Source of the DNA: Beroe forskalii
Taxonomy: Eukaryota > Ctenophora > Nuda > Beroida > Beroidae
Reading direction: 5' to 3'
DNA: 64,000 nucleotides
Assembly: GCA_011033025.1 (NCBI GenBank)
Contig: WFMF01000186.1
Span: forward strand, 248,001 to 312,000
The notes under the pieces were generated by a model. The model searched no databases and was not told the origin of the DNA. It saw nothing but the letters and a program-made list of their open reading frames with translations. The position numbers and the translations under genes are program-made. How positions within the stretch are numbered: position 1 is the stretch's first letter; the number at the start of each line of letters is the position of its first letter. This document shows positions 16,501 through 54,100 of the stretch, piece after piece.

Positions 16501-19500
16501 ATGGCTACCATGGATGACATTGATTTGTATGGCGACGGTCTGGCTACAGAACTGAATGTTTCTCAGACGGTAAGACAATTTTATCAGCAGCAATCGTTGT
16601 TTTGTTGAAAATTGATACACCTTTCAACTTTCTTCAAAACCTGTAACTCGGCTTTATATTATTATCTTTTTATTATCTTTCTTTTAATCTCTCATTTAAC
16701 TACTTTTCATTTCGCAGCACTCATATTATGATCTGCTATCCTCAGACGCTGGCCCCGCAGCCTATGCCCCAGCTGAAAGTGGAGCCTATGGCAGCGGCCC
16801 CAGCCCCCCTGCCCATGCCAGCCCTGCCACCTCCTGCTGTGGTGGGAACCATGCCTATCAAGGTAGGGAGAAAGGGGTGCTAACACGTGACTGGAAACGG
16901 TAAATCTCACGTGACTAGAAACGTAAATACCTCGTGAAATAGAAAGGTAAATCTCAAGGTAGGATTAAGCTATTAAGGTGACGTGACTAGAAACGTAAAC
17001 ACCTCGTGAATAGAAAGGTTAATCTCAAGGAAGGATTAAGCTGTTAAGGTCACGTGACTAGAAACGTAAATTCCTCGTGAATTGAAAGGTGAATCTCAAG
17101 GAAGGATTAAGCTGTTAAGGTCACGTGACTAGAAACGTAAATTCCTCGTGAATTGAAAGGTAAATCTCAAAGGTCTATATAATTGCAGTCTATAACACAG
17201 GTTTTACAACAGGTTCATGAAACTTTAGGAGTCCTAAGTTGTTTAAGTTTGTAATGTATACTGAAGGATTAAATGAAGCATAAAATGAACATCATAGTAG
17301 GTTTATTGGTTGATCAGGACGAGGCAAAGGTTAGGAATTAATTAAAACTAAATGCTGAAGTTAGAATTCAATAATATTACCAGCAACTAGGCTGCACCTT
17401 AGATTCTAACTTCAGGCTTTTGATTAATTATCAGCGTTAGAATACCTTAGTGATAGCATTAGAATCTAACATGCCATCCATTCCCAGTGTTGTTAGTCGG
17501 TCACTCTGATAGTACCTTACCTTTGAAAACAACGGGAACAAGACACAAGATTTTGTGTTATTTTTCTTAGGTTTTATTGGTGTTTCAATAATATTTTGAA
17601 AAAAGGAACTCTTTTAAGCTTTTAGTTATTCGAATTATTATCGAAAATATTATTGTCATAGATTATTAATAATTATAACCATAAGATCTTTTGCCTTATA
17701 TCCCGCATAATTTTCATACTCTGTTAATTGAATATTGTTACAGTTGCAGTAAATATAATTTGAAAATTTGAATAATTTAATTGTAGAATAATCTAAAATC
17801 CGAATAATCAGTTAGGTTATAAAGTTGTATTTGAATGATTTCTGATGTCGACCGTAACAGGTGGTTTGCACGCGGTAATACTTAAATGTTTAGAGAGGAA
17901 AATAGATATGAATTTTGAAATTAAAACATTTACTTATTTTTCAATCCTGCTTTTGCTTTTGAATAAAAAGATAATAAACATCATATTTCTATCTTATGAT
18001 GATCTATTCACTAATTTCTCGGTGGGTAGACCGATATTTATGTTTTTCAGTCGACCAGCTTTGAGGTTATGTTTATTAATTATTTGACTTTGCATTTTGT
18101 CATTTTGTACACCGTAACCACTTGATATAATTACAATGAATTGTTCTAATGAATTGGAGGTGGTGTATTGTTGTAATTATATTATCCGTCTTGACTTTCA
18201 CATTTGTTGTTTCATGATTTATTTTTTAGTTAATTAAATCTGAGATTAATTTTCAAGTTTTTAATACTTATATCGTATATAATCTATTCAAATTACTAAT
18301 AAGCTAGCTACCTATTAGAATAGATAATTTTATGTGTTTTTATTGTAATCGTTAATTGTATTTTAATGCTGATGTTTATGAAATTGTTGTAAATATTGTA
18401 TTTTTATGGGATTATACTACAGATTTCATATAATTGTCGGTTTGTGATACGAGTGTAATTTTTTGTTTTGTTTTGAAAATATGCTGAACCTTGAACTGCT
18501 ATTTAATGAAATGTTTAAAACTTCAATTAAGTACTCGGACTTTATCTATGAAACAATTCGTAAAACTTGTATGAATGAAGCATTTTGTTGAACATCGCCG
18601 ATATTGAACTAACGGGTACTGTATTTTGAAAAATTAAACGGTTTATTTTTTCTGTCTATTTCCTGGCTGATCTATGATATGGGCATTGTATATTGTACAT
18701 TGTATATTGTATGCGATAATCAATTTTATGTACTGTTATAAAATTATTGTGTAACATTCTATTTTCATTGTTTTGATGAATGAATTTCATGATTTATGAA
18801 TCAATCAAATAGATATAATATGACTATGCTCCAAAGTAGTTGATATTTCTTTATTATTTCGTTATGATAGGTAATCATCTACTTTCGCCTTCAAGATTTC
18901 AGAATGCTGATTAGTGACTAATTTGATGAGTTTTAATAGGTAGACTAAACTTAAAGTACACAACTTTATAGCTTCATTTCAATTTTCAATCCCAGAAAGA
19001 ATTGTTTATCATCGTGAAAATTGGATTATCATTTATCAAGATTCTGTTTTGTATTATGTTTGAGATTTGATGAGGTAGCATACTACAATGTTGTATCAAA
19101 ATTGTACTAAAAATATAAATGTAATAGCATTTTATTTTCATTCGTCTTCTTGACTCTTGTGATATTTGGTTGATGTACCTTAAATTAGTTTTTAGCTACA
19201 ATCATCTGACATATTACTCAGTTGCTGTCAATATTTTGTTATTTTCACTCAGATATTGATATTTAAGGACACTAAACACGTTTGGCTGTTTATGTTGACT
19301 TTGTCAAACTTTTAAAATATGTTTGTGAATTTAAGTATATTTTTAACACAGTTACACTTACAATGAATGATGTTAGAATTTGATATCATTAATTTATTAA
19401 ATACCGCTTACCAGACAAATCATTATATTGACACAAATTTATCAAAAGTTTCATTTGATCTCTAAACGAAGGTATCTCGTGATGCATAATGCTATGAAGG

Positions 19501-22500
19501 ATTATTTATTAAGTTTATTAGATTCCTAATTTTCACCGTTGATGAATTTGATATTAGCCTAAAAGTGTAATGTAGTACGTATTCGAATGTAGGTATTAAG
19601 AAATCATATATTTAAGAAATCATGGTGTGGAATTGTTGTTGCAATTATTGTATTTGAGAATTCTATTATCTGTACTCATAGCTTCCGAACTGCCCTCTTT
19701 TTTAGAGGGCGCCCACTCATGCCCATCTTTTTGGGTCTTGCCCTCCTTTAGGCCCAATTTGCCCTCCTTTTTGACACTTCCCAAAGTACACTTAAGATTC
19801 ACGGCCTTGAATTGTTCTTTGTGGGCGGTTTCCAAAAGAAAGGTCGACCACATATTTCGGAAATACACCTAATAAGCACTATCTCGGAAGAAGAAAGGTC
19901 GCAATTTTTTGGTAATACAGCTTAGAATATTTAGTTTTGATTGGAGAGGCAATGACATAACAAGTTTTATTCAGGGATTTGACATCTTCGAATTTTCATT
20001 CATTTTTAGCATTCCTAACCATAAAGATAAGATGTTAGCATCAGAAAATCACACAACAAATCATGAGTGGGTAATTATACAAACATAATCTGAATAATAG
20101 AATATTGCCTTTTTTTCGGCGATTTGTCTTCCTTTTTAGAGCAAAAACTGCCCTCCGAATGGATTTTCAAAGGTCGGAAGCTATGTCTGTACTGTCATAA
20201 TATGCACATGTCGATATATTTTGTCATTTCCTAGTTTTACAGAATTACTGATGTGCCAGTCTAACATTAAATAACGGCTATTAATTTTGAATATCAATCG
20301 ATGTTATAATATTTTTTGATGTGATTTGTGGAGTAGATTCCATACATGAGCATTGTTAAAAGTATGATTTAATAGGAGTATGATTGTGCGGCTCAGTTCT
20401 GTGTCAGGTTAAGGGTTTTGTTTTATATTTAAGCATTATTTTCTAAGATGTGATATGAATTGTTCCAAAATCTTACTTATGATCACTCACGATGATATTT
20501 TGTCGTCTGTTGTTAAGATATTAAGATGTTCAGGTGTAATATTGTAATTAATACTGTAATTAATCATAATCTTACTCACCTTATAATCTGATTCGAATTT
20601 CCTGATTCAAAACTTTCCGTGAAAAATTATTTACAGAGAGGTGCTGTTTATGAAAAAGTAGAACAGCTTTAGCTACCTTCGCCACTTGAAAGCAACTTTT
20701 GGACAAACATCTTTTCCAGATTTCAAACTAGTGCGAAATTTATGGATGGCTAAGGTTGTAATGTGAAAGCTATTAAATCGATATGTAACGACTTAAGTAG
20801 ATTAACAAAAGTGTGCGACATTTGAGGATGCATTCTGAAATTTCCACACGAGCGCCATTTGTAAGTACGTGATTCGTATTTTACAGATATTTACATACGT
20901 ACATGGTCCGCGCGATGTGGAAATTTCACAATGACTCTATTTCTCGATATCGCGACAGATAAGATGCCTTGTAAAATATTAATGTTTAGTTAAAGATGCT
21001 GAGATTATTATAATTATGAGTAATAATCCCAGTGGAATAATATGAGGAATGTTGGAGCGACAATCCCAGCCAAAATTTGTCCAAATCGAAGCAAAAAAGC
21101 CCATTTAGGTTGACAGAAACGTGATATTAATATTTGGCTATTTTACGCCGCGCAATTATTATCATGGTCTCAACTCGCTAGTTTTGATAAAGGAGCAATT
21201 TCCAAACTGCGTCAGAATCCAATTAACGCGCACAAAACGCGCGTCATTCATTCTAAAAAGCTACCAGGATCCTAATCTAGCCAAAATATTCCCAAACTAG
21301 CTGCCAGACTCCAAAAGTAGCCAGGGACTCCTAAAATCCGCTGCAAGGATTCCATTGCTTGTTTATACATCCAGGAACTCATTATATCATATTTTTGTCG
21401 TGAAGCAGTGTTTTTGTGATTCATTGGAATGTGGGAACCATATCAGCCATATGGCTCAATATGTTTTTGAAATAATGTACTTAGCAAGGTTGACTTCGAG
21501 GTCCCTGTTTGGATAGTGAAATCCTTATGACGCAAAAAGGCATTTTGCTACTTTATGACTCCATTCAGATAGTATAAATTATAATGAAAGTGCAGCTCTT
21601 TGCGTTATATCGCCCGAGTTCCAGGCTTAATTTAATGCATTGAGTAGTGTTGCGCGCGCGACGCGCAAACACACTCACTAATAACGATACTTGCTTTGCA
21701 TACGAAGTAACCTCCGCAGAACTTCCATTTTTTGCCTGATACATACTAATGCGCGGCGCATGTAGCGAAAAGAAAAGTGATTTTGCATTATTCCATTTGT
21801 ATCTGTTATTTCGTAACGTCATCGTATCATGTTGCCTAGTGAAGACATGTAATTCGACGTTATCGAGAATGAAATCATGACTGAATTAGTCTTAGACACG
21901 CCGCTAGACAGAAAAAAAGCCGTTTTTCCCGCGAAATCCCCATTCCCAGCCACTTATAAAAATTATTCCACTGGGGTAATAATGTATCTTTATATGGGTG
22001 CATATTTAATCAGAATCTATTGAGGAAAAGTTGCATATTCTCAAAGCCACTTTCTTATAACTCTATTACTAGTTCACTGAATTAATGATGATTGCCGAAT
22101 AATGGTTTCAATCTATATAAATTAGAATATCAATTATAAAATCAATTAGGATATTAATGATATGATATAAATTAGGATGTTAGTTAGGATATTAATTTGA
22201 ATTCAAATAATGTGATAATAACGATATGCGGTGGTACACTGTTTATTGATTCGTGTGAACTGTGGAATATGAATTGTAATTGTATTTTGCCTGAGCGTGG
22301 TGTGTGATGAACGATTGCCAACAAACTGGTAAGTTGTGTCAGATCTATCAATTACTTTATACGTGTGTCCAACTTTGTGCATTTGCATCATATCTTGATA
22401 GACGTGAAAAGCTGATAATGAAACAGCAGAAAATAAAATGAACTGTTTCTTTTGAATTAAACTGAAATGATTGAGAAGAAAGAATTTTTACCATCGACTG

Positions 22501-25500
22501 TGAAAGCATGAAGTTGGACTATACGTCATTAGTCATGACGTGCCGGCTTGGTCATGTGACCAACTGATGAGGGGTAGAAACTGGGACACCTCTGCAGAGT
22601 TCAAGTTCGGTGATGCGACTTTTTATCCCCCGACCCTTTACCACCCTAGGGTACAGGTGCGAACTTTTACCCCTTGGGTAAATAGTCGCATACTCTTCAA
22701 GTTCATGCCATGTGGAGGCGACACTCCCTGTTCTTAGTGTTTCAAGTCAATTACTGTTGTTCAAGTACTGCCCCCGATCAGATCAAATTTACAGATCATA
22801 TTTTTGATTGCAGTGACCGAGCCGGCACAATTCAATAAATATAGTTATGTTCTTTTATTTAAGTAATACACCCAAGTCTCAAGTGGCTCTTGAAATCCCT
22901 CTATAAGGCCACTGCTACAATTTAACGGTCTTGCTATGTATAACATACGTCACGTTTTAGATTGACTTTGATAATTGATTTAATTTGTCATGAGACATCA
23001 TAATTGCATAAAAACCCTTGCTAATTATATCCGCCTCAATTGGGATTTTAAGAGTAATTTGATTTCACATCCTCTGTTTATCAGATCTGTACAGATGATA
23101 CCTTTCAGCAAGAACCAGCTCAAGTTCCCACCCCTGAAACCACAATAGCTGGCGTGCCAGGAGGTAATGATGGAATTTCTGCGAAATTACTGAAATTTTG
23201 AAATTGAATTTAAAAAAAGAGCGATTTTCATCTTTGTTATGCTGGGAACAGTTGTTTCCACTAACAAAACATTGAACATTTCAGTTACATATGTTACCCA
23301 AGACACGTTCGCACAACAAAACCGATACCAGTACATTGATCCTAACGATCCCAAATCAAAGACAGTCTACGTCGGAAATTTGACTTGGGTAAGTGATCAC
23401 AATTCATTTCATTTCTTATTGGACAGCATAAGAACCTGATTCCCATGACGTTTGCATCGTTCGTTTGATCATTATTGTCTGAAGCTTTACTATCCACGTC
23501 GCCTACCTTATTAACCTTTATTTAGCTAGCCTTTTTTAACCGGCCTTTTTTTGAATCGTGAATTCGTGACCAATTTCCTGATATATGACCTCTTAAAACC
23601 CCTATTTTTAGGCTAGAATGGACTTTTTGAACTGTAAATGACCCAAAAGACCCCATAATATTACCAAAAACTGCTCTTTCCCATTCAGCAGCATTGCAGA
23701 GAATCCACTAAAATCAAATAAGCATACATCTTTGCACAGATTTTTCCCCGAGTCCATTAACACTGTCATAAAAGGTTCCTTTGACCTAAATTGATTGGCC
23801 TTTAATTTGACCGGCCCCACTTTAACGGTTACTTTTTCAACCAGCTATTTGGACAAAAATATCAAAGTTGTTTTGTCCTTATTAAGGGCCGGTTAAATGA
23901 ACGCCGATAAGGTATGTTGCTGTATCTATGGCACATTATGTTTATCGGTCCATGACGCGCGTTACGTAGTTGTAACGCGCGGGGATAGAGCTCTGTTCCA
24001 ATATTATTTTATTTTGGCTGACTCTAGCTAGATAGATAGCGAGCGCGCGCGATCGATCATTGATCATCACTGCTGGAATCGATCGCGCGCGCGTCGATAG
24101 AGCGAATTGAATCGAATCCAGCCGTCGCGTGCATATCACTTCATTTTTTCCCTCCCCATTGGCATTTTTGTGAATACAAAAAGGCAAATGAGAGGGTTGG
24201 CAGAGATCGTGGTTTGGGAAGGTGAGAAATAGGATATATGTGTATATCAGGTCGAGGTTTGCAATACAACTACTGTAATTTCTGGAAAGTGCCCGGATTG
24301 CTCCTTTATAATATCAGTCGCGAAAATGTCCCTCCGTCCCTCCGTCCCCCGTCCCTCCGTCCGTCCCCCTTTCACACATATCTTCAAAATCACGAATTTC
24401 CTAATTCATGAAGCTTTCGGTTGTCAAAAATTTTAATCGCAAACGTTGACCAGGCCCATCCGTGCCACATTCCCAGTCACTAAAGTTTTCATATCGACCA
24501 AATCTTATGTCCTGGAAATTGATTTTCATTTCGACTATTTCAAACACAAAAAACACGATTTTTTTCACCAACAAAAGATATTGACCGAGTAAATGTGAAG
24601 AAGGCTTGCCAAATTTGACTATTCTCTGAGAAATGATGTGGAAAATTGAATCAGTATCACAATAAAAAAACTGAAATTTTACACGTATTGTTACACATAA
24701 TTAACATGTCATTTCATGATTTCGTAGCTCAATCGGTTAGCGCGTCAGACTTTGAAGTGTTGGCACGCTTGAAATCACGGGTTCGAGCCCCACTATAGTC
24801 AAATTTTTATTTTCTTAGCTTATCTTCAGTTTTCTGATAGCAAAAAATGATCCTGTACAGCCCAATCAGTTGATCAGAAAGGTTTTAAATCAGGTCACAG
24901 AAAATTTTTAGTAATAAGTTTAATTCAATACACACGAAATATACGATGGCACGATACTCAAATAAGCATGTTACCCAGGTCGTTAAGACTAGAATTTCCA
25001 AAATGTTGAGTTACAAGACATCAAGCATCGCGGGGGAGGGAAATTAAGCGCCTGCATACGGGAACAATGGACAAACAAGAATTGTGTCGGCAGGCGCAAT
25101 TCTTGTTCAAATGTAAAAGTAAAAACATTAAAGATTTTAGTACAAACCCAAAATGTATCACCTTCCGTCTTTGTCGTTTTATCAAACAGATAATTCCTAT
25201 TGATCTTATCATGATTCGTCTCTTTCACTTCCATCGATTTCTATTTCCAATCCCTCTTTCCCTCTAAACTGTGATGCTCGATGTTCAGTGCGGCTAAGCC
25301 TTGTAGTTTTCAGCTGTGAGGGTAACGGTGGGCCGAAACCTCTCCGTTCTCTCTCGTAATCTGCTGATGGATATCCTCATCGCGGTGACAGGGGGGCCTG
25401 TGAGGGTGTCTGTTGAAGAGGCAGCCGGAAGTGAAAATATGAGCTTTTTAAATTTGAAAATATGGATATTTTGACCATTTTTGGGAGCAAACTCTATACG

Positions 25501-28500
25501 GGAGAGGGCAAGTATGGGCTGGTGGACAAGAACACCGGTATATGGATTCTCAAGAACAGTGTTAAAGTTAAAGCTCGGGGTATCTGCAGCAGGATCACGA
25601 CTTAAACTTCGCACCTCCGAGGACATGGCTAGCTGTATCTGACAGCAAGTTAAGAGTGGATGACTTGAAGGAGGATAAAACAAGGGGGATGTACTGATAT
25701 ACTTTTTTCTTAGTTGATATGATTCAGTTTTAATGGGGTTGGCAAGTTTGGCAGCCCGGGAATAGGGGGAGGCATTAATGCTCCCCCTATTCCCGGGATC
25801 ACAAATTACAGAGTTCACCGTACGGAGGCTTCCCCTAAACCTGGGATCACCTCTAATCACGGACTCCCCTGTCCACTGCTCCCCTTAATCTAGGGCTCCT
25901 CCGATTTCCCGGGGCTCACCTCTATACCCGGTCTCGCCCATACCAGACTCACCCTACTGCCAGGCTTCACCATACCAGGCTCCACCGAACCTCGGGCTTC
26001 ACCAATGCCTTGGGATAACCCCGATATAGGGGCTCACCCGTACCAGGCTCACCCTTACCTTGGGCTTCACCATACCAGGCTCCACCGATCCTCGGGCTTC
26101 ACCAATGCCTTGGGATAACCCCGATACAGGGGCTCACCCGTACCAGGCTCACCCTTACCTTGGGCTTCGCCATACCAGGCTCCGCCGAACCTCGGGCTTC
26201 ACTGATGTTCTGGGCTCACCCTTCAACATGGGATCACCCCTACCAGGCTCACCCTTACCTCGGGCTTCACCATAACAGGCTCAACCGAACCTCGGGCTTC
26301 ACTGATGTTCTGGGCTCACCCTTCAACATGGGATCACCCCTACCAGGCTCACCCTTACCTTGGGCTACACCGAACTTGGCTCCACCTTATCCTGGGCTTC
26401 ACCATAACTTGGGCTCACCAAGATACATGGGATCGCCCATACGAGGCTCAACCTTACCTTGGGCTTCACCGACCTTGGCTACACCTTATCCCGGGCTTCA
26501 CCATAGCTTGGCCTCCCGCACTTACATAGGCTCCCACATACCAACTTGGGCTCCCCCTTACTAACTTGGGCACCCCATAACTTACTCGGGTCATCTTCCA
26601 ACTTGGGCTCCCCTATACTAACTCGGGCTCCCCCACACCAACTTGGGCTCCCATATACCAATTTGGGCTCCCCCATACTCCCATACTAACTAGGGCTCCC
26701 CATACTAACTCGGGCTCCCCCATACTAACTCGGGCTCCCCCATACTACCTCGGGCTCCCCCATACTAACTCAGGCTCCCCCATACTAACTCGGGCCCCCC
26801 ACACTAACTCGGGCTCCCCCGTGCAGTACGGGCTCCCCCATACCAACTTGGGCTCCCCCGTTCTGTTCGGGCTCCCCCATACAAACTTGGGCTCCCCCGT
26901 GCTGTTCGGGCTCCCCCATACCAACTTGGGCTCCCCCGTGCAGTACGGGCTCCCCCATACTAACTCGGGCTCCCCCATTCTGTTCGGGCTCCCCCATACA
27001 AACTTGGGCTCCCCCGTGCTGTTCGGGCTCCCCCATACCAACTTGGGCTCCCCCGTCCTGTTCGGGCTCCCCCATACCAACTTGGGCTCCCCCGTGCTGT
27101 TCGGGCTCCCCCATACCAACTTAGGCTCCCCCGTGCTGTTCGGGCTCCCCCGTGCTGTTCGGGCTCCCCCATACCAACTCGGGCTACCCCACACAAACTT
27201 GGGCTCCCCCGTGCTGTTCGAGCTCCCCCATACCAACTTAGGCTCCCCCGTGCTGTTCGGGCTCCCCCATACTCCCATACAAACTTGGGCTCCCCCGTTA
27301 TGTTCGGGCTCCCCCATACCAACATGGGCTCCCCCGTGCTGTTCGGGCTCCCTATATCAACTCGTGCTCCTCCAAACTAAATTGGGCTCCCCCGTAATAC
27401 CAACTTGGGCTCTCCCACACTATTTGGGATCCCCCATACTACCTCGGGCTTTCCCATACCAACTTTGGCTCCCCTATACTAACATACTAACTCGGGCTCC
27501 AGTAACCAATTCGGGATCCCGCTGTGTGCTGTTTGGGAGCCCCAAAAACAACAGGCTCCCCATACTGACTCAAGATGAATATCATTCACAGTCATAACCA
27601 CTGCTACATAATATAACGTACTTTATGAAATCAAGTTTACGGAGCGGAATCGTCTTTTTGCTCGGATAGCACACTATTTCGTTGTGAATTTCCCATATTC
27701 CACACGGCTCCTCTTTGAGGAATATTCTCCAATCCTCAATAGTATGTTGTAATATAGAGTTACTCAACTGTTTACTGATATTATAATATTTAATTTTATC
27801 TCTTATTCAAACATAGAAACATGCGTTGAACGAACATAGCTGCAACTTTGTACTGTGTTTTGTAGCTTAAAAGAAAATGTGAATAAATGTCAATAGCTAT
27901 TAGCAATAGCGAGGGGGTCATGGATAGATGAATAGAATATGTTTGAGTATTAAAGAAGGCATGATTACATTGAGTGCGGATAGGAGTACCTAGAATGAAA
28001 GTGAAACTCATTTATCTTCAAGGATCGACCGAGGCCTCGGCTCGGCCTCGGTTTCCACCGAGGATTAGGGTTTCACCGAGGCCTCGGCCTCGGTCAGAAT
28101 TGCCAATCCTCGGAATGCCTCGCCCTCGGTCATATTGAATCCCAATTTTCCTCGGCCTCGGCCGAGTTTAACAAATTTGCCGAGGATTTTACCGAGGATT
28201 TCAAAGGAAAATATCCATATTTGATAACAGAAAAAACCTGAATTTTATTTGAAAAAAGTCCCAAGAATAACTTGTATGATTTATTGAAAGATCTTGAAAC
28301 TTTCGATGAACTTTGAATCTAATCTCGTCAAAAATAGGAAAAAAATGGGTAGGAGTGAACTTAGTCTAATCCAAACGTCTGGCTTATAGGGGCTGCCGCC
28401 CCAGACCCCTGCTAAAAAAGTTATTCAGACTTAATAAAACTGCCTTGATTTTAGTCCGACCACTGTCATCTGGAAAGTAGCTAAATATGCAAATAAATTA

Positions 28501-30621
28501 ATGAAATCCTTTTGGGAATTCAATTTCATTTACTCTGAACGTTTGGCTGCCGCCCCAGACTCCTCCTACGCATTTAACATTCTGTATAGTAATTTTAATT
28601 GCAAAATATTGTAAAATTATAAAATCATTAAAAGGGGCTTCTTTAATTCAATCCCAAAAGTCGGGTTTGGGCCCCCAGACCCCTTAATACTGCATAAATG
28701 GGCCCCGAACAGCACGGGGGGCCCAAGTTGGTATGGGGCCCGAAAGGGGCCCAAGTTGGTATGGGGGCCCCACAGGGCGGGGAAAATTTTTAGGGGAGCC
28801 CCTCTGCAAGGGGGCCCGGGTTGTATGGGGGGCCCCCGTTATGGGGGCCTGATTGTGGGGGGCCCCGGGGGTATGGGGGGCCGATTGGTGGGGGCCCGGT
28901 TGTATTGGGGGCCGAGTTGTATGGGGGCCCTTTTGTATGGGGTATGGGGGCCCAAATTTGGGATGGGGGCCCCAAATTTGGGGGGGGGCCGACAGCACGG
29001 GGGGCCCAAGTTTGTTTGGGGGCCCGAAGACGGGGCCCCAAGGGTTTAAGAGCCCAATGGGGAGCCGAGGTTTGGGGGCCCAGGTATGGGGGTGAGTTAG
29101 TTGGGGGGGTAGTATGGGGGCCCCAGTTGGGGGGGGAGCCCGTGTTGGGAGGGGGGCCGGGGTTGTAGGGGGCCCCCGTTGTATGGGAGTATGGGGGGGC
29201 CCCAAGGGGAAAGGGGAAAAGGATATGGGGGCCCGTTTGGGGGGGGCCCAAAAAGGGCCGGTTGGAAGTGACCCAGGTAAGTTTGGGGGCCCAATAAAGG
29301 GGCGTTTTATTGGGGGGGCCTATGGTGGGGGGGCCCGTATGGTGAAACCCGGGGGGGTAGCCAAGGTGGTGGCCCCGGTGGGGGGAGCCTCGGGGGGCCC
29401 CTTTCTTTTTGAGCCCCCGTTATGGTGAAACCAAAAATTAAGTTCGGGGGACCAAAAAGGGGGGAGCCTGGAAAGGGATCCCCTGTTAAAATGACCCAGA
29501 ACATCAGTGGCCAGGTTTGTTTGGCCAGGGGGAACAGGAATTTGGAGGGGTGATGTTGAAGGGACCCAAAATCAGTGAAGGAGGGTTTGGGAGCCTGATG
29601 AACCCCGGTAAGGGGGGCCTGGTCGGGTACCCTTTGGGGAAGTGGGGAACCCGGGTTTGGGGGAGCCTTTGGTAACCCCCATTGGTCTGGAGGGGAAAGG
29701 GGGGTGAGCCCCGGACCGGGGGGCCCGATTGGGGGGCGGGGTTTGGGGACTTCATGAGGTTTCCCATGTGGGGGAAGCTTGGGCGGGGAACTTGTTTTTA
29801 ACCTAAATAGGGAGCCCCTTTAAAAAAGGTTTTGGGGTCCCCCCCCCCCATTGGGTTTTAAACTTTAGAAATGTCTTTTTTATTTGTATTATATGACTTC
29901 ACCCCCCAACCTGTTTCATAATGATATAGTTAATTTAAAACAAGAAAGAAAATGATGAGATGCGGTTCGGTTTTGATGAGGTAAAGTAATTTAGCAGGAA
30001 GTGGTTTCGATCCACCGACCTCTGGGTTATGGGCCCAGCACGCTTCCACTGCGCCACCCTGCTAACTGACGACTATATATTCTCTGTATTCTTAAATTTT
30101 GAGTAAGCTATTGGTCCAGTAATCCGTAAGGTAGTACGAATGTAATTTAACTGTATGCTGAAAAATGGTTGATTATAGATGAGATCATTTCTGGATGGCC
30201 TCAGTATAGATGCTGCAAGTAACCGATGGGTATCCCGTGACAGGATTTTTAAATTTGTACATGAACACTATCTACACACGCTTAATCCAATGTGAAATTG
30301 ATTGACGGTATTTCGCGCGAAATGCGCCGAGCCATGCGATCGTACCGAACCTACATAGATACTATCGAACCTGCCAAAAGTCTACACTCTCACTGGACTA
30401 CCTTATAAGGTTTTGTCGTAGGTTAATCGAATTCGATACACATTGATCATTGGAAATATACAACCCCAATCTCACCCAATATCACTCCTCAGTGGACGAC
30501 GGACCAAGATGTCATACACGCGTGCTCGAGCCTCAATGTCCGGGATGTCTTGAATGTCAAGTTCTACGAGAACAGAACGAACGGCCAGAGCAAAGGCTAC
30601 TGTGCAGTTGATGTGGGGAGT
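16501..30621 (+). CDS. CPSF6: CPSF6 (cleavage factor Im 68 kDa subunit), N-terminal half only
   Basis: Exons 16501-16569, 16746-16862, 23085-23163, 23285-23388 and 30493-30621 join in frame. The N-terminus has DDIDLYGD, close to the DQIDLYDD of CPSF6. A proline/alanine-rich linker follows. The RRM shows RNP2 as VYVGNLTW, the intron falls exactly at TW|WTTDQDV, and RNP1 appears as ENRTNGQSKGY. CPSF6 pairs with NUDT21 in cleavage factor Im, which binds UGUA motifs and guides poly(A) site choice in the nucleus. In this window the RRM stops after V-D-V-G-S, where the same exon continues as GPCR sequence. The second half of the RRM, the proline-rich region and the RS-like tail are absent. An alternative acceptor for exon 2 (16,718) would shift the frame. 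CPSF7 is possible, but the NLTW motif fits CPSF6 better. Confidence 0.85.
16903..17190. repeat. 71 bp minisatellite, about four copies
   Basis: Tandem units with CACGTGACTAGAAACGTAAA start at about 16,908, 16,980, 17,051 and 17,122, a period of 71 bp, each continuing with CTCGTGAATTGAAAGGT-like sequence. It lies about 40 bp after CPSF6 exon 2, in the intron. Each unit carries an E-box-like CACGTG. Confidence 0.85.
17191..19676. other. AT-rich part of CPSF6 intron 2; no gene seen
   Basis: Low-complexity AT-rich sequence. A small inverted repeat at 17,336-17,430 (TAATTAAAACTAAATGCTGA against its diverged reverse complement ending TTTTGATTAATTA) may be a short MITE. No exon is recognised. Confidence 0.4.
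19677..20185. mobile_element. Non-autonomous transposon with 8 bp target duplication (hAT-like)
   Basis: A 509 bp element with terminal inverted repeats CATAGCTTCCGA and TCGGAAGCTATG, flanked on both sides by the identical 8 bp TCTGTACT (19,669-19,676 and 20,186-20,193). An 8 bp duplication points to the hAT superfamily, though other families with 8 bp sites are possible. GCCCTCTTTTT-type motifs repeat inside the left end. It has no coding capacity and lies in the CPSF6 intron. Confidence 0.85.
21024..21981. mobile_element. Possible non-autonomous element with CCCAGTGGAATAAT inverted ends
   Basis: The motif CCCAGTGGAATAAT near 21,028 is matched by its reverse complement ATTATTCCACTGGG near 21,962, within similar TAATAAT-flanked context. 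The 950 bp between has no credible ORF. Boundaries and target duplication are uncertain. Confidence 0.45.
22540..22828. mobile_element. Possible MITE with GTGCCGGCTTGGTCA inverted ends
   Basis: GTGCCGGCTTGGTCA at 22,540 is matched by TGACCGAGCCGGCAC ending at 22,828, a 15 bp inverted repeat with one mismatch. The 289 bp unit has no ORF of note and no clear target duplication. Confidence 0.5.
24032..24100. repeat. GC-alternating imperfect palindrome
   Basis: GCGCGCGCGATCGATC-type sequence on the left is mirrored by ATCGATCGCGCGCGCG on the right around a short AT-containing loop. It can form a hairpin or cruciform, and the alternating GC runs could adopt Z-DNA. It is in the CPSF6 intron. Confidence 0.6.
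24325..24372. repeat. GTCC/TCCGTCCC microsatellite
   Basis: A short tandem run of GTCCCTCC and GTCC units, about 45 bp long. Confidence 0.8.
24724..24802 (+). pseudogene. tRNA-like sequence (tRNA relic or SINE head)
   Basis: The segment shows an A-box-like TAGCTCAATCGGTTAGCGC and, after an unusually placed interval, a B-box-like GGGTTCGAGCCCC T-arm. The anticodon stem does not close (TCAGA has no TCTGA partner) and the acceptor ends do not pair. A functional tRNA is therefore unlikely. A degraded tRNA gene or a tRNA-derived SINE promoter are the best readings. Confidence 0.45.
25265..25420. repeat. Second copy of the dispersed repeat at 6.6 kb
   Basis: Starts with AAACTGTGATGCTCGATG and runs through GGTGGGCCGAAACCTCTCCG, paralleling 6,615-6,800. 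It lies about 310 bp upstream of foldback element copy A, inside the CPSF6 intron. Confidence 0.55.
25734..29855. mobile_element. Foldback transposon copy A with tandem-repeat arms
   Basis: The left end is TGGGGTTGGCAAGT, followed by a palindromic AGCCCGGGAATAGGGGGAG segment. The left arm (25,734-27,575) is made of degenerate 20 bp-class units such as GGGCTTCACCATACCAGGCT, then GGGCTCCCCCATACCAACTT. A core of about 1.1 kb (27,575-28,690) is shared with copy B at 51.2-52.4 kb. The right arm (28,690-29,855) is the same repeat in inverted orientation. Its terminus is recognisable only in degraded form (AATAGGGAGCCCC, then a long C run and CCCATT). The right arm differs from copy B mainly by systematic loss of the A in GGGAGCCC. 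Copy A lies in the CPSF6 intron. The candidate duplication TTTTAA is seen on both sides but not exactly at the ends. It contains no transposase, so it is non-autonomous. Confidence 0.8.
27575..28690. repeat. Core (loop) of foldback copy A
   Basis: Non-arm sequence nearly identical to 51,208-52,370 in the same orientation. It contains a cluster of CCGAGGCCTCGG-like palindromic motifs (28,025-28,200) and two phrases with GGGGCTGCCGCCCCAGAC. A 71-codon minus-strand frame (27,796-28,011) is conserved between copies with about four substitutions but has no recognisable domain, so it is not called as a gene. Copy A lacks a roughly 20 bp insert near 51,310 and a roughly 40 bp insert near 51,985 that copy B has. 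Confidence 0.75.
29992..30063 (-). tRNA. Initiator tRNA-Met (CAU)
   Basis: Read on the minus strand this 72 nt gene folds into a standard cloverleaf. The acceptor stem begins AGCAGGG with the A1-U72 pair typical of eukaryotic initiators. The D-arm contains TGGCGCAGTGGAAGCG. The anticodon stem CTGGG/CCCAG carries three consecutive G-C pairs next to the loop CCCATAA with anticodon CAT. The T-arm has GGATCGAAACC, where A replaces the usual T54, again an initiator trait. The 3' end ends in discriminator A. It functions in start-codon recognition with eIF2. It lies about 140 bp beyond foldback copy A, antisense to the CPSF6/GPCR transcript. Confidence 0.96.
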
Positions 30622-33600
30622 CTGAACATTGTGCTGGTGGTTACAAACATCACGTGCACCTTCCCATCTTCGTCTTCTCGCTGGTGGTGTACTGGGATAA
30701 CCAGGTGGGTGCAGGGGACTTATAATCCCAGTTATTTTACCTCACTGCACTTTATCTCTCCCCTGACTCTAACTATAACCCTAACCTAAAGCAAACCCTT
30801 GGCCCTAACCTAAGTGTTAATAAGGCTTAACCCCTAACACAGACCCTAACCATTGCCTACAGTTGAAATATCATGCGGTAAAGTGTCGTAGGTAACAAAT
30901 TGAGCTCAAATGTCCGTTCCTCAGGTGGGTGGCTCTGCTCCCACGGGGTTTCACCTCCTTCGTCTTCCTGTTCTTCCTGAACAGCGCCCTCAACCCCATC
31001 ATGTACGGTGTGTTCAACACCAACTTCAGAGGTGCTTTCCAGAGGTCAGTAGCGGTCATGTTATAATAGTACTCCTATCACAAAGTCTCGTGTTAATACC
31101 ACTCCAATCACAAAGTCTCATGTTATAATACCACTCCAATCACAAAGTCTCATGTTAATACCACTCCAATCACAAAGTCTCATGTTATAATAGCATTCCT
31201 ATAATCCTATCACAATGTCTCATGTTAATACCACTCCAATCACGAAGTCTCATGTTATAATAGCATTCCTATCACAATGTCTCATGTTAATACCACTCAA
31301 TCACAAAGTCTCATGTTATAATACTACTCCAATCACAAAGTCTCATGTTATAATACCACTCCAATCACAAAGTCGCATGTTAATGTATCACTCAATCACA
31401 TTTTGTTACGTCCCTCCCGTCGGTTTGATCTCAAATTGTGTGTTTTTGGTTGATGTAACAATCGGAGTTAATTGTAAATGCACAGATCATTTTTCAAAAT
31501 GCAAAACTCGGTCGATACGACGTTTTATTTTTCGTGTAAATTTTGTGAACTTGAAATCTAGAATCTTCGTTCATTGCTTCGATGAAACTTTTGACTCTTT
31601 GAGCTCCCTGCTGATCTTTAAATAACTAAATACGTGAATAAAGCATCTTGAATCGAATTCTTCGATTAATAATTCATTTCATTGACATACAGGGATAATA
31701 TTAAGAGGTAATGTGGTAAGATCTGTGAGTGCTATGCATTTTACTGTTTCAGTTTATTAGCTTATTAGTAACCTTTTGTCCTTTTTGCTGTGGTTATCTT
31801 GGGCATTGAACAGCCTTTTGTACTTTCTTTAGCCAAAATCTTAAAGCCGAGTGCTAAGGAATTGAAAAAAGGATTTCCGACTGGAATGTCTCAGCATGCT
31901 TTATAAACAGCAGCTGCCTTAACGGATTTCCTTTGTCAACTGATATTTGATTCTTAGTAGGGTATATCACATAATTTAACCAAATTACTGTCAAGAATTA
32001 TGCTCGTTTTTCTGACAAAGCACCTTCCCTCCCATGTAAGTGTAACTGATAGAGAAATGTATGTTTTTAGTTTTGGTCATCAAAACTGAAAGATTTGGTG
32101 AAGAGGGTCACTGGTCAGTTGAAAAAAATGCCGGTTGAAATCTAATAATTTGAACCAATCGATAGCAGAGTTACCATAACAATCAGCAGCACCTCAGCGA
32201 AGCACGGCAGATAAACGAGCAAATTTGGTGGCGTGCAGCGAGTGTTATTGACAATAAAAGTTTAAAGGGTTTCACAAACATGGACAGGCCTGAGTCCTCA
32301 CTTAGACACGTATCACTATCTCAGCTAACCATTTCTGGAAAGGCGATATGAAGTCTTATCACTGTATTTTACTTTAATCACTACCACACTGCCAGGTTGC
32401 TACGTTGTGAATTCCTGCGGAGTAACTACCAGGGAAACACTCGGTACAACAAACTCACAACCAGGCTCGCCAGTGTCAACGGCCACTTCGGAGCTTTCAC
32501 GCGGAATTTCAGACCAAAATCCTCGCTCAATACTGGTAAGTGATTATATCCGTAGTCATGTGATCCAGCTGATAAATCAATTTCATTAAACTTCTTTGAT
32601 GTATGTGCACGCAGGCCCTGTGACCTCCCCGGTTATCGTGAAACTGAAAGTATGACTGGCTCTAGATATCATGTTTTGTATGGTAGACTTGTAGTATTTA
32701 CCAAGAATTTTTGTTAAGGTGAATTGGATTGCTGATAAACGTAAGCTTTTTGTTTCACACATTCTTCTATCATTTCTAATTCTATCATAAATTAGATAAT
32801 CGGTAATCCGCTCAAGAATGATTATTCATTCTATCTCTTCTGCATTATTTGGTTGGACAAAATATTTTAAGCTGTCATACTTATTTCGGTGAATTTGAGC
32901 AAAATGAAAACAACTGTAAGAATTGACAGAAAATCGATTTTATGCGCATTCGATAGTGTGCCTTAGGTCATTTACAGAGATTTTGTACATAATATCATTT
33001 AAAATTGAACACTCCTCCATACTTCCATACCAAAATTTTGCATAATAGAAATTAGGGGAGTAAAAAGTTTTACCCTCTGTCTCTAATATAGTGCCTGTGC
33101 CCTTGTTATGTCCAAACAAATATAAATATGGCTAAAACAGTACACGTGTGAGTGTCTTACCCGAAACACGCTTCTTCGAGCTTAAATGTTTCTTCTGCAT
33201 AAATATTTTAACTTATTAATTATTAATTGTCATAATAATTTGCTTTTGTCATAATAATTTGTGACGAACTGTCATCCATTATATCTAGATTCTTGTCTGT
33301 CTAGACTCGTGTCTGTAGTGGCGGCATATATACTTACAGGCTGACTGCTGCGTGTTTCACAATTAATGTTCAAGATGAAAATACAGCTCAGGGGTGATAT
33401 TTGGTGAGATGAATTTCGAATTTAAGAGTCTCTGCAGGACTGCAGATCGCTCTGAGGCATTATAATAAGCGGTTACATGTCGAAGTGGTGACCTTATACC
33501 GTACACAGTTACACAGTCGAGGAGACAGCCGAGACTGGTAAGATGGATAATGCAGGACGAGGCGTGCCGAGTTCAATATATCGAAGGTAGACGGTCGCAG

Positions 33601-39785: not shown

Positions 39786-40130
39786 GGCGCCTGAAAGGGA
39801 CTCATAACCCAGCCCAATACACTCATAACCCACCCAAATCCACTCATAACCCACCCCTTTCCACTCATAACCCACCCCAATCCACTCTGACTCATAACCC
39901 ACCCCAATCAACTCATAACCCACCCCTTTCAACTCATAACCAACCCCAAATCCACTCATAACCCGACCCAATACACTCATAACCCACCCCAATCCACTCA
40001 TAACCCACCCCTTTCCACTCATAACCCAGCCCAATCCACTCATAACCCAGCCCTTTCTACTCATAAGCCATCCCAATCCACTCATAACCCACCCCAATCC
40101 ACTCATAACCAACCCAAATCCACTCATAAG
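39785..40130. repeat. Satellite of about 20 bp, CCACTCATAACCCACCCCAA type
   Basis: About 17 units of CACTCATAACCCACCCC(AAT/TTT)C with small variants. It changes abruptly into the 21 bp satellite at about 40,130 through one shared unit. Confidence 0.9.
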
Positions 40131-41880
40131 TAAGCCTATCACACTCCTAAGTAAGCCTATCACACCCTAAGTAAGCCTATCACACTCCTAAGTCAGCCTA
40201 TCACACTCCTAAGTAAGCCTATCACACTCCTAAGTAAGCCTATCACACTCCTAAGTAAGCCTATCACACTCCTAAGTAAGCCTATCACACTCCTAAGTAA
40301 GCCTATCACACCCCTAAGTAAGCCTATCACACCCCTAAGTAAGCCTATCACACTCCTAAGTAAGTCTATCACACCCCTAAGTAAGCCTATCACACTCCTA
40401 AGTAAGCCTATCACACTCCTCAGTAAGGCTATCACACTCCTAAGTAAGCCTATCACACTCCTACGTAAGCCTATCACACTCCTAAGTAAGCCTATCACAC
40501 TCCTAAGTAAGCCTTTCACACTCCTAAGTAAGCCTATCACACTCCTAAGTAAGCCTATCACACTCCTAAGTAAGCCTATCACACTCCTCAGTAAGGCTAT
40601 CACACTCCTAAGTAAGCCTATCACACTCCTAAGTAAGCCTATCACACTCCTAAGTGAGCCTATCACACTCCTAAGTAAGCCTATCACACTCCTAAGTAAG
40701 CCTATCACACTCCTAAGTAAGCCTATCACTCCTAAGTAAGCCTATCACACCACTAAGTAAGCCTATCACACTCCTAAGTATGCCTATCACACTCCTAAGT
40801 AAGCCTATCACACTCCTAAGTAAGCCTATCACACTCCTAAGTAAGCCTATCACACTCCTAAGTAAGCCTATCACACTCCTAAGTAAGCCTATCACACTCC
40901 TAAGTAAGCCTATCACACCCTAAGTAAGCCTATCACACTCCTAAGTAAGCCTATCACACTCCTAAGTAAGCCTATCACACTCCTAAGTAAGCCTATCACA
41001 CTCCTAAGTAAGCCTATCACACTCCTAAGTAAGCCTATCACACTCCTAAGTAAGCCTATCACACTCCTAAGTAAGCCTATCACACTCCTAAGTAAGCCTA
41101 TCACACCCCTAAGTAAGCATATCACACTCCTAAGTAAGCCTATCACACTCCTCAGTAAGGCTATCACACTCCTAAGTAAGCCTATCACACTCCTAAGTAA
41201 GCCTATCACACTCCTAAGTATGCCTATCACACTCCTAAGTGAGCCTATCACACTCCTAAGTAAGCCTATCACACTCCTAAGTAAGCCTATCACACTCCTA
41301 AGTAAGCCTATCACACTCCTAAGTAAGCCTATCACACTCCTAAGTAAGCCTATCACACTCCTAAGTAAGCCTATCACACCCCTAAGTAAGCCTATCACAC
41401 TCCTAAGTAAGCCTATCACACTCCTAAGTAAGCCTATCACACTCCTAAGTAAGCCTATCACACTCTAAGTAAGCCTATCACACTCCTAAGTAAGCCTATC
41501 ACACTCCTAAGTAAGCCTATCACACTCCTAAGTAAGCCTATCACACTCCTAAGTAAGCCTATCACACTCCTAAGTAAGCCTATCACACTCCTAAGTAAGC
41601 CTATCACACCCCTAAGTAAGCCTATCACACCCCTAAGTAAGCCTATCACACTCCTAAGTAAGTCTATCACACCCCTAAGTAAGCCTATCACACTCCTAAG
41701 TAAGCCTATCACACTCCTAAGTAAGCCTATCACACTCCTAAGTAAGCCTATCACACTCCTAAGTAAGCCTATCACACTCCTAAGTAATCCTAAGTAAGCC
41801 TATCACACCCCTAAGTAAGCCTATCACACTCCTAAGTAAGCCTATCACACTCCTAAGTAAGCCTATCACACCCCTAAGTT
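40131..41880. repeat. 21 bp satellite, about 83 copies
   Basis: Nearly homogeneous units with core CTAAGTAAGCCTATCACA. The period is exactly seven codons, so long artificial frames of the IGLLRSV type appear on the minus strand (up to 182 codons). Occasional 1-4 bp indels break these frames, which argues against translation. Confidence 0.95.
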
Positions 41881-47864: not shown

Positions 47865-48115
47865 AAGTTCGACAACCCAGAAGTTAGACACTCTCACTGC
47901 TTGTCGAACTTCCGGGCGTCAACAGACTGAAGTCCGACAGTCCTAAAGCTCGACAGCAGGATCAGGTGTCGAACTTCCGGTCGTCAACAGACTGAAGTTC
48001 GACAGCCAGAAGTTCGACAGCGGGATCAGGTGTCGAACTTCCGGTCGTCAACAGACTGAAGTCCGACAGTCCTGGGTTGTCGAACTTCTGGGTTGTCGAA
48101 CTTCCGTCCCCCAAC
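47865..48115. repeat. Minisatellite overlapping the GPCR C-terminal coding region
   Basis: Irregular tandem units built from GTCGAACTTCCGG, its inverted form CCGGAAGTTCGAC, and GTCAACAGACTGAAGT. The array runs from about 47,865 across the stop codon at 47,962-47,964 to about 48,113, so it encodes the receptor's last 50 residues or so. Confidence 0.85.
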
Positions 48116-51100
48116 CGATCTGCCTCAGGGACTCCTCTGAGTGCCACCCTTGGGCTCATCTGTACGAGCATCTTTTCCTTAAGGTTAGAAATATCTCGGT
48201 TCAGGACTGTCATCCTAGTTTTGATGGACTTCTGCGGGTTCCGGCTGGTGTTACACTTGGATAGGAACTTAGGGAGGCGCAGCAGTATCGGGGAGAAAGC
48301 GGCCCTGGCGGCGGGAATCAAGTAGGTAGCCACCAGGAAGTAGTACACTATGAAGTGCAGCAGGTGCGTCTCCAGCCACTCCATCAAGGAACCGTTCTTA
48401 CCGGCCAGGAACATCAGGAAATTCATGAGGACTTTTGGCAGGTAGCAGAGAATGAAGAACACAGTCAGCTGGATGGTTTTCTTCTTGGCCTCCAGCAGTG
48501 TCCCGCTGTTGCTGCCTTGGTTGAGCATCTTCTGAGACTGTGCGTTCATGGCAATGACGAAGATAGCGCAGCTGAGCACGCAGAGAATGAAGGGACCCCA
48601 CCAGAGGACGTCTATGATCCACATCATGACGGGGAAGGTGTCGGCTTCTGTGGAGTACTCGCATTCCCCCCAGTTGGGGTTGTACGTGTACCTACTGTCG
48701 ATGAAGGAGACGGTGGGGAAGAAGGGCAGGATGGAGATACAGCCTTGGAGAGCTGCCAAGAGGAACAGGATAACCACAAAGGGCTTGTAGTCAGTGTTCC
48801 GCAGTTTCAGGGGGGACACCAAAGAAAGGCATCTGAACACCATGATGCTGAAAATAACGATGTAGGACGTACTTTTGAAATTAATAATTATAATATCTTA
48901 ATACTAATAGTTGCTTACTACTATATCCAATTTTTCTCCATGCAGGTCTAAATTCATGATTGGGGGAACCATGGAATTAAAATTTTGAACTTTTTACGGT
49001 TGTCTGGTGTAATTACCTGGTGATATCGAACCAAGCAAATCTGTCGCAGAAGTTGTTGACGAAGCCAAATAATTTGCAGAAGAAACTTGGAAAAGACGAC
49101 TGAAAAGGTCGTCCAGCAAGAATGAGCACAGCGTAGGGGAATACTCCAAACAAACTCAGGATCTGGGAACAGGAATGGGTGGAATCTTGAAATGCGTGGA
49201 ATTTTAAACAGCGCCGCGATGGTTTGACTCAGAAAATATCCAACGTCACATTTTCATCAGTAGAATAAAATCATTAAACGGCAGTCAAAGTTTCAAGGAT
49301 AGTGGCGATGGAAAGTAAACTATATACATATATCACATATATATCACATACCAAGTCATTGATAGCGAGGACCATCGCAGAAACCAAAAAGGGAAGCGCT
49401 CTCACAGTTTTTCGCGCCTCAAGAAACTTGTAGATAACATATCCTGAAATTAGAAGATATTGAGAACTTAATTACTCATTGGTCGTGTAACAGAGTGGAG
49501 TGCCGAAGGCACGACACGATGTTACTCGCTCAATTTGATTGATCAAGTGGATGGATTTCAATGGGGTTGGCAAGTATGGGAGCCCGGGAATAGGGGGAGG
49601 CATTAATGCTCCCCCTATTCCCGGGATCACAAATTACAGAGTTCACCGTACGGAGGCTTCCCCTAAACCTGGGATCACCTCTAATCACGGACTCCCCTGT
49701 ACACTGCTCCCCTTAATCTAGGGCTCCTCCGATTTCCCGGGGCTCACCTCTATACCCGGTCTCGCCCATACCAGACTCACCCTACTGCCGGGCTTCACCA
49801 TACCAGGCTCCACCGAACCTCGGGCTTCACCAATGCCTTGGGATAACCCCGATATAGGGGCTCACCCGTACCAGGCTCACCCTTACCTTGGGCTTCACCA
49901 TACCAGGCTCCACCGATCCTCGGGCTTCACCAATGCCCTGGGATAACCCCGATACAGGGGCTCACCCGTAACAGGCTCACCCTTACCTTGGGCTTCGCCA
50001 TACCAGGCTCCGCCGAACCTCGGGCTTCACTGATGTTCTGGGCTCACCCTTCAACATGGGATCACCCCTACCAGGCTCACCCTTACCTCGGGCTTCACCA
50101 TAACAGGCTCAACCGAACCTCGGGCTTCACTGATGTTCTGGGCTCACCCTTCAACATGGGATCACCCCTACCAGGCTCACCCTTACCTTGGGCTACACCG
50201 AACTTGGCTCCACCTTATCCTGGGATTCACCATAACTTGGGCTCACCAAGATACATGGGATCGCCCATACGAGGCTCACCCTTACCTTGGGCTTCACCGA
50301 CCTTGGCTACACCTTATCCCGGGCTTCACCATAGCTTGGGCTCCCCCGCACTTACATAGGCTCCCACATACCAACTTGGGCTCCCCCTTACTAACTTGGG
50401 CACCCCATAACTTACTCGGGTCATCTTCCAACTTGGGCTCCCCTATACTAACTCGGGCTCCCCACATCAGCAAACCCATATACCAATTTGGGCTCCCCAT
50501 ACTCCCCATACATAGGGCTCCCATACTAACTCGGGCTCCCCATACTAACTCGGGCTCCCCCATACTACCTCGGGCTCCCCCATACTAACTCAGGCTCCCC
50601 ATACTAACTCAGGCTCCCCCATACTACCTCGGGCTCCCCATACTACCTCAGGCTCCCCATACTAACCTCAGGCTCCCCATACTAACTCAGGCTCCCACAC
50701 TAACCCCTCCCCAACCGTACAGGCCCCCACACCAACTTAGGCTCCCCCAGCCTGTACAGGCTCCCCATACCAACTTGGGCTCCCCGTGCTGTTCGGGCTC
50801 CCCCATACCAACTTGGGCTCCCCCGTGCTGTTCGGGCTCCCCCAGGCTCCCCGTGCTTTTCGGGCTCCCCCATACCAACTTAGGCTCCCCCGTGCAGTTC
50901 GGGCTCCCCCATACTCTCATACCAACTTGGGCTCCCCCGTGCTGTTCGGGCTCCCCCATACCAACTTGGGCTCCCCCGTGCTGTTCGGGCTCCCCTATAT
51001 CAACTCGTGCTCCCCCAAACTAAATTGGGCTCCCCCGTAATACCAACTTGGGCTCTCCCACACTATTTGGGATCCCCCATACTACCTCGGGCTTTCGCAT

Positions 51101-54100
51101 ACCAACTTTGGCTCCCCTATACTAACATACTAACTCGGGCTCCACTAACCAATTCGGGCTCCGCTGTGCTGTTCGGGAGCCCCAAAACCAACTTGGGCTC
51201 CCCCATACTGACTCAAGATGAATATCATTCACAGTCATAACCACTGCTACATAATATAACGTACTTTATGAAATCAAGTTTACGGAGCGGAATCGTCTTT
51301 TTGCTCGGATCGTTTAATACTTAATTACAGCACACTATTTCGTTGTGAATTTCCCATATTCCACACGGCTCCTCTTCGGGGAATATTCTCCAATCCTCAA
51401 TAGTATGTTGTAATATAGAGTTACTCAACTGTTTACTGATATTATAATATTTAATTTTATCTCTTATTCAAACATAGAAACATGCGTTGAACGAATATAG
51501 CTGCAACTTTGTACTGTGTTTTGTAGCTTAAAAGAAAATGTGAATAAATGTCAATAGCTATTAGCGATAGCGAGGGGGTCATGGATAGATGAATAGAATA
51601 TGTTTGAGTATTAAAGAAGGCATGATTACATTGAGTGCGGATAGGAGTACCTAGAATGAAAGTGAAACTCATTTATCTTCAAGGATCGACCGAGGCCTCG
51701 GCTCGGCCTCGGTTTCCATCGAGGATAAGGGTTTCACCGAGGCCGAGACCTCGGCCTCGGTCAGAATTGCCAATCCTCGGAATGCCTCGCCCTCGGTCAT
51801 ATTGAATCCCAATTTTTCTCGGCCTCGGCCGAGTTTAACAAATTTGCCGAGGATTTTACCGAGGATTTTAAAGGAAAATATCCATATTTGATAACAGAAA
51901 AAACCTGAATTTTATTTGAAAAAAGTCCCAAGAATAACTTGTATGATTTATTTGAAAGATCTTGAAACTTTCGATGAACTTTGGCCATCATAGAAGTCAA
52001 ATAACTGCCGTCATTTTACTGGACTAATCTCGTCAAAAATAGGAAAAAATGGGTAGGAGTGAACTTAGTCTAATCCAAACGTCTGGCTTATAGGGGCTGC
52101 CGCCCCAGACCCCTGCTAAAGCAGTTATTCAGACTTAAAAAAACTGCCTTGATTTTAGTCCGACCACTGTCATCTGGAAAGTAGCTAAATATGCAAAAAA
52201 ATTAATGAAATCCTTTTGGGAATTCAATTTCATTTACTCTGAATGTTTGGCTGCCGCCCCAGACTCCTCCTAAGCATTTAACATTCTGTATAGTAAGTTA
52301 CTGCCGCGATTTTAATTCGGCAAGTATTGTAAAAATGATAAAATCCTATTCAAGGAGCTTCAAGTTGTGGGGGGAGCCTGAACAGCACAGGGGGCCAAAA
52401 GTTTTTTATGGGGAGTTTTAGCCAGAACGGGGGAGCCCAAGTTGGTGGGTATGGGTGAGCCCGAACAGCACGGGGGAGCCCAAGTTGGTATGGGGGAGCC
52501 CGAACAGAACGGGGGAGTCCAAGTTGGTATGGGGGAGCCCAAACAGAACGGGGGAGCCCAATATGGTATGGGGGAGCCCGACCAGCACGGGGGAGCCCAA
52601 GTTGGTATGGGGGAGCTCGAACAGCACTGGGGAGCCCAAGTTTGTGTGGGAGGGCCCATGGTAGTATGGGGGAGCCCAAAAAAGCACGGGGGAGCCCATG
52701 TTAGTGTGGGGGGCCCGAACAGCACGGGGGAGCCCAAGTTGGTATGGGGGAGCCCAAGTTTGTATGGGGGAGCCCGAACAGAACGGGGGAGCCCAAGTTT
52801 GTATGGGGGAGCCCGAACAGAACGGGGGAGCCCGAGTTAGTATGGGGGAGCCCATACTGCACGGGGGAGCCCGAGTTAGTGTGGAGGAGCCCAAGTTATT
52901 ATGGGGGAGCCCAAGTTGGTATGGGGGAGCCCGAACAGCACGGGGGGCCCAAGTTGGTATGGGTGAGCCTGAGTTGAAATATGGGGGGGCCGAAAGTTGG
53001 GGGGAGGCCTGAAAAGCATGGGGAGCCCAAGTTGTTATGGGGAGCCTGAGTTAGTATGGGGAAGCTGGGGGACAGTATGGGGGAGCCCAAGTTGGGGAGC
53101 CTGAAATTGTCGGGGGAGCCCATGTTGCATGGGGCCCGGGGCCCAAGTTTGTATGGGGGAGCCCGAACAGAACGGGGGAGCCCAAGTTGGTATGGGGGAG
53201 CCCATACTGCACGGGGGAGCCCGAGTTAGTATGGGGGAGACCGAGTTAGTATGAGGGAGCCTGAGTTAGTATGGGGGGGCCGAGGAGGTATGGGGAGCCC
53301 AGAGTTAGTATGGGGAGCCTGAGCAGTATGGGGAGCCCTAGTTAGTATGGGAGGCGGGGAGCCCAATTGGTATGGGGGAGCCCAAATTGGTATATGGGAG
53401 CCCAAGTTGGTGTGGGGAGCCCGAGTTAGTATAGGGAGCCCAAGTTGGAAGATGACCGAGTAAGTATGGGGGTGCCCAGTTGGTATGGGGGAGCCTATGT
53501 AAGGTGGGGAGCCCAAGCTATGGTGAAGCCCGGGATAAGGTAGCCAAGGTCGGTGAAGCCCAAGGTAAGGGTGGGCGATCCCATGTATCTTGGTGAGCCC
53601 AAGTTATGGTGAAGCCCAAGTTGAATGGGAGCCTGGAGTAAGTTCGGGGTGTAGCCCAAGGTAAGGTGAGCCTGGTAGGGTGATCCCATGTTGAAGGGTG
53701 ATCCCAGAACATCAGTAAAGCCCGAGGTTCGGTTGAGCCTGTTATGGTGAAGCCTGAGGTAAGGGTGAGCTTGGTAGGGGTGATCCCATGTTGAAGGGTG
53801 AGCCCAGAACATCAGTGAAGCCCGAGGTTCGGTGGAGCCTGGTATGGTGAAGCCCAAGATAAGGGTGAGTCTGGTACGGGTGAGCCCCTGTTGAAGAGGT
53901 TATCCCAGAACATCCGTGAAGCCCGAGGATCGGGTGAGCCTGGTATGGCGAAGCCCCAGGTAAGGGTGAGCCTGGTACGGGTGAGCCCCTGTATCGGGGT
54001 TATCCCAAGGCATTAGTGAAGCCCGAGGTCCGGTGGAGCCTGGTATGGCGAAGCCCAAGGTAAGGGTGAGTCTGGTATGGGCGAGACCGGGTATAGAGGT

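Follow-up and report, generated by a model that had tools for sequence, protein, structure and literature searches.

Three described systems come close to what is found in the locus analysed here. The first is CPSF6 (CFIm68), which the locus resembles in an RRM exon that is 60% identical to the human protein over 43 residues (in agreement with the PDB chain) and in a 3′ half, on another contig, that has a proline-rich part and an RSLD domain. It differs from CPSF6 in that the RRM ends halfway, its second half not having been found in the assembly. The second comprises the aminergic-like class A receptors of the rhodopsin family. Receptor exons joined from contig C357, leaving out TM1 and the third loop, match Pfam family 7tm_1 with 97.1 bits, and in the PDB they come closest to chains of 5-HT1A and beta-adrenergic receptors; the copy in our locus, in contrast, is limited to TM7, the tail and a portion of TM6 whose frame is shifted, and does not offer the seven TM helices in one frame of a class A GPCR. 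The third is a pattern of sequencing error: nanopore reads that run through an inverted repeat have its second arm called wrongly and come out too short there (PMC7229812). A foldback element in our locus likewise has a normal first arm and a second arm that is shorter and badly called, with the difference that the data are only presumed to be nanopore reads, judging from the sequence itself.

The locus lies in a window of 64,000 nucleotides, the whole stretch of Beroe forskalii DNA that was analysed (contig C232, positions 248001 to 312000, in a 216-Mb assembly of 1134 contigs).

Results

The join within one exon

A preliminary description of the window had a CPSF6 RRM passing into receptor TM6 inside a single exon, and this is borne out by the 43-residue match to CPSF6 on one side and a match to C357, beginning at 30629, on the other. 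The frame at 30493–30704 translates as WTTDQDVIHACSSLNVRDVLNVKFYENRTNGQSKGYCAVDVGS, then LNIVLVVTNITCTFP. The features on the receptor side are:

30618–30629, no strand: CPSF6/receptor join, from comparison with C357
30629–30704, plus strand: 3′ part of the receptor TM6 exon, one base short, 99% identical to C357:211255–211331
30629–32305, plus strand: stretch common to C357:211255–212941, 97.4% identical, 7 mismatches and 20 gap openings
30925–31044, plus strand: TM7 exon of the receptor, carrying NPIMY, with a net loss of two bases in comparison with C357
32302–32305, no strand: empty site (TTAG) of a repeat element present in C357, from comparison with C357
32396–32535, plus strand: predicted receptor C-terminal tail exon, from the splice model, with no second copy among the 40 of 718 candidates scored

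At 30618–30625 the window reads GAGTCTGA, which is also present at the corresponding place of C357; ACA then follows in the window, compared with TGGTGT in C357. Since GAGTCTGA is common to both copies and the long match starts only afterwards, the join falls at about 30618–30629 rather than at one base. The breakpoint previously drawn at 30,621/30,622 marks a change of gene in the sequence, although not one that can be assigned to a single base. Near the join, the left side of the window has nothing else in common with C357:203000–218248. Continuation of the same frame into TM6, also described earlier, is correct as far as ...NITCTFP but not beyond, the window lacking one base of C357 near 30663, which shifts the frame.

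A predicted splice model of seven exons with GT/AG sites has no stop in its 280 codons, which reach the end of the tail exon. The spliced frame stays open because the one-base loss in the TM6 exon and the net two-base loss in TM7 together make three; in about a third of cases chance would bring the frame back, so that an open fusion frame is weak evidence. The spliced model scores 15.9 bits with Pfam RRM_1, under the cut-off of 20.7, and has no 7tm_1 match.

The receptor and its second copy

Where is the rest of the receptor? As stated earlier, TM1–TM5 are absent from the window, which holds part of TM6 and TM7 only, and NPIMY and the tail follow in later exons (the TM7 exon and the predicted tail exon). 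The search for the receptor 5′ exons that had been proposed leads to C357, where most of them lie. This contig has the one other copy in the assembly of 30629–32305, and upstream of the shared stretch exons for TM1, TM3, TM4, TM5 and the third loop can be recognised by eye. C357 therefore carries TM1 and TM3 to TM7, the TM2 exon not being pinned down by eye. Its TM6 and TM7 translate unbroken, making it the copy that keeps the frame in the exons; the window copy, where TM7 begins, has three gaps and one mismatch against C357 within about 20 bases, and its receptor frame is restored before TSFVFLF and NPIMY. From TM4 to the third loop, the C357 sequence has a single occurrence in the assembly (one candidate, scored). 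The tail exon was not found outside C232 among the 40 of 718 candidates scored, and the remainder of C357 has no match to it.

Within the piece C357:203000–212999, positions ~666–4890 are a minisatellite of ~46-bp units that fills a receptor intron. Each unit repeats, by eye, the end of the TM1 exon with its splice donor, so that the intron presents one 5′ splice site many times over. In the window, a 311-codon frame at 47962–48897 on the minus strand looks, again by eye, like a piece of a different class A receptor.

At TTA(G), C357 turns into a repeat element and the contig ends 5.3 kb further on, whereas C232 has the empty site followed by the receptor tail. The element has at least 34 other matches with E no higher than 1.5e-125 among 40 candidates scored, three of them close together on C175. 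Its start is identical after TAA in all five copies inspected, which fits a TWA target, as judged from the 5′ side of the target-site duplication (the 3′ ends were not found). TWA targets are linked to Harbinger-type elements. Given that the repeat is present in C357 and its site empty in the window, the C232 receptor copy and that of C357 are probably alleles of a single receptor locus. If C357 and the right part of C232 are indeed two alleles, receptor sequence would be expected immediately to the left of the C232 copy.

The differences between the two receptor copies are dominated by indels. A BLAST alignment of 1701 columns contains 7 mismatches and 20 gap openings; the contrast is weaker with MAFFT (14 mismatches, 17 indels), 12 of whose 17 indels are one- or two-base homopolymer changes. 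Searches for allele copies of the flanks returned, beyond the query itself, only repeats or nothing (40 of 718 candidates scored in one search). There is thus no allele-pair baseline, and repeat copies were taken as the yardstick instead, their pairs being more diverged than the receptor copies and mutually non-independent. Across 15 pairs, 415 mismatches stand against 135 gap openings, about three per gap opening, and mismatches are the more numerous in every pair (17 to 10 in the pair with least contrast). The corresponding figures are 113 to 31 for a short repeat and 99 to 19 for two foldback left arms.

CPSF6 exons and a CPSF6-type 3′ half

The CPSF6 features of the window, and a CPSF6-type part on contig C422, are:

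16501–16569, plus strand: predicted first coding exon (MATMDDIDLYGDGLATELNVSQT), splice model by eye, open frame tested
16746–16862, plus strand: predicted exon 2, acceptor picked by eye to keep the frame
23085–23163, plus strand: predicted exon 3, splice model by eye, frame tested
23285–23388, plus strand: predicted exon 4 of the splice model, whose end, KSKTVYVGNLTW, is the start of the RRM, with a GT donor
30493–30621, plus strand: RRM exon, from protein matches, broken off ahead of the second RRM half
C422, ~101290–99850, minus strand: CPSF6-type 3′ half with proline-rich exons, RSLD domain and RS-like tail

The exons at 16501–23388 have GT/AG intron borders and a consistent frame. This model of the earlier exons was made by eye, and none of them has a significant match to human CPSF6 when taken singly: the best is the end of exon 4 (7 of 12 residues as in the human protein; E 0.91 taken alone), and the first coding exon matches the human N-terminus at chance level only (E 5.4). 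The 43 residues of the RRM exon match human CPSF6 PDB chains with E 4.9e-13 and 2.5e-12 and CPSF7 more weakly (5e-10), and taken alone they give no Pfam match with an E of 1 or less. A second copy of the RRM exon was not found in the assembly. The second protein match, C158:381822 (39%, E 0.96), was rejected as a lost CPSF6 copy; acidic stretches, RRMs and a GRG-rich tail, seen by eye, give that gene a nucleolin-type look.

The window has no significant match to the human CPSF6 C-terminus (best E 1.9), in agreement with the earlier statement that the C-terminal half is missing. A search with the Pfam RSLD profile found C422 at E 0.0022 and 25.6 bits in a single exon, under the cut-off of 27, and the domain reaches 47.5 bits over the joined exons. 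This search gave four matches in all, of which the other three (two on C825, one on C1) are weaker, and none in 14 control genomes, so that it has no positive control. The human C-terminus used as a single protein query found nothing. The C422 exons include a stretch, APHVNPAF, which we take to be as in human CPSF6, and we infer that C422 carries the missing half of the same gene. Directly upstream of its CPSF6 part, by eye, lies non-LTR retroelement-like sequence on the opposite strand. The proline-rich exon adjoins this frame at ~101300, either through an insertion in the gene or through a second poor join.

The second half of the RRM is another matter. Human pieces and a fly-like piece as queries gave nothing convincing, nor did tblastn in 60 kb of C422. 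The search with human pieces recovered the RRM exon of the window (59%, E 6.2e-11) and thus works for the first half, but a diverged or split second-half exon could have escaped it. The search for CPSF6 3′ exons elsewhere, proposed earlier, has in this way yielded the 3′ half on C422 but not the second RRM half, so that no uninterrupted CPSF6 locus is shown; if the C422 part belongs to the same gene, CPSF6 would lie in at least two pieces with its middle missing.

The foldback element upstream

A foldback transposon close to the join had been offered as a possible cause of rearrangement. Such an element, with long inverted arms of tandem units, is present in the CPSF6 intron:

25728–29860, no strand: foldback repeat element, from self comparison and comparison with a second element
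~25728–27580, no strand: left arm, limits by eye
28680–29860, no strand: right arm, damaged, shorter and rich in G/C runs, from homopolymer counts, limits by eye

It ends, however, at ~29860, about 0.8 kb before the join, and nothing seen here indicates that it caused a break. Homopolymer runs of at least six bases number 19.5 per kb in the right arm, compared with 0.5 in the left; for the second element (~49556–54290) the figures are 4.6 in the right arm and 0 in the left. The right arm of the first element is about one-third shorter than the left, within limits set by eye, and its arms match each other at 67–74% over the three longest pieces, compared with 77–78% in the second. That only the right arm is damaged in the consensus suggests that reads came from one direction beside the join, and suggests, as far as the sequence itself can tell, that coverage at this arm may have been poor.

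The two elements belong to the same family (84% identical, 25979–28641 against 49706–52361), and an arm is badly damaged in the first alone. A tRNA-Met(CAT) gene lies at 29991–30064 on the minus strand, where an 80-base stretch has several copies on C243, one of them with 100% identity. A 21-bp unit present about 80 times, with frames open on both strands, occupies 40121–41792.

Discussion

With the greater part of the receptor, and a 3′ half of CPSF6 type, on other contigs, assembly error, and not a new fusion gene, is the most likely origin of this exon. We hold with good confidence that it is a misjoin, made where coverage was thin, through a chimeric read or an incorrect overlap. Sequence to the left, up to ~30618, would be the 5′ half of CPSF6, and that to the right, from ~30618–30629, a second receptor allele, the upstream part of which is seen in C357; a single long read or a few, chimeric or wrongly overlapping, would have tied this allele to the poorly covered CPSF6 side. 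It is from the assembled sequence that we infer both the misjoin itself and the low, one-directional coverage at the foldback arm. The preliminary description had offered a misjoin and a real breakpoint side by side; the C357 exons, the C422 half and the indel-dominated copy favour the former and make the latter less favoured. The open spliced fusion, the second RRM half that was not found and the weaker contrast under MAFFT speak against a misjoin, and since no long shared repeat lies at the join, its cause would be unexplained unless the read was chimeric.

Could the join be present in the animal? A structural change on one haplotype, in which the RRM exon of CPSF6 broke internally and became linked to the receptor's TM6 exon with a non-functional or neutral outcome, is unlikely but deserves consideration. 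It would account for a sharp join with a short shared sequence, for a receptor side that belongs to a haplotype other than that of C357, with its empty repeat site, for the open spliced frame and for the fact that no uninterrupted CPSF6 locus was found. The indel-dominated differences from C357 are, however, unlike biological divergence in this genome, and the damaged foldback arm points to poor coverage just beside the join. Moreover, the CPSF6 part of C422 is preceded by retroelement-like and not by receptor sequence, and the TM4-to-loop stretch, found on C357 only, continues normally into TM6, so that no reciprocal product is in sight. A true one-haplotype rearrangement whose CPSF6 5′ exons and last receptor exons are spliced to an open fusion transcript is improbable.

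A working fusion gene, uniting the CPSF6 N-terminus with TM7 and the receptor tail, is scarcely credible, even though its predicted frame, with GT/AG sites, meets no stop before the tail exon is complete. The product would contain half an RRM that falls short of the RRM_1 cut-off and nothing that 7tm_1 recognises, the start of TM7 is disturbed by gaps and a mismatch, and the second half of TM6 is out of frame; that a functional fusion is unlikely, as first suggested, thus holds for a combination of half an RRM with part of a receptor. There is very little to commend a second, decayed partial receptor copy that landed in a CPSF6 exon by segmental duplication or fragment insertion. Its 1.7-kb stretch does occur twice in the assembly, but past 32305 the window continues into what appears to be the receptor's own tail exon, where an inserted fragment should return to CPSF6, and many indels with few substitutions are unlike decay.

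For a locus that is likely a misjoin, the consequence lies in annotation: automatic gene prediction could call an open CPSF6–receptor fusion at this place, and the two real genes would each be annotated as incomplete. Damage to one arm of an inverted repeat near a chimeric exon may serve as a sign by which to screen for such places.
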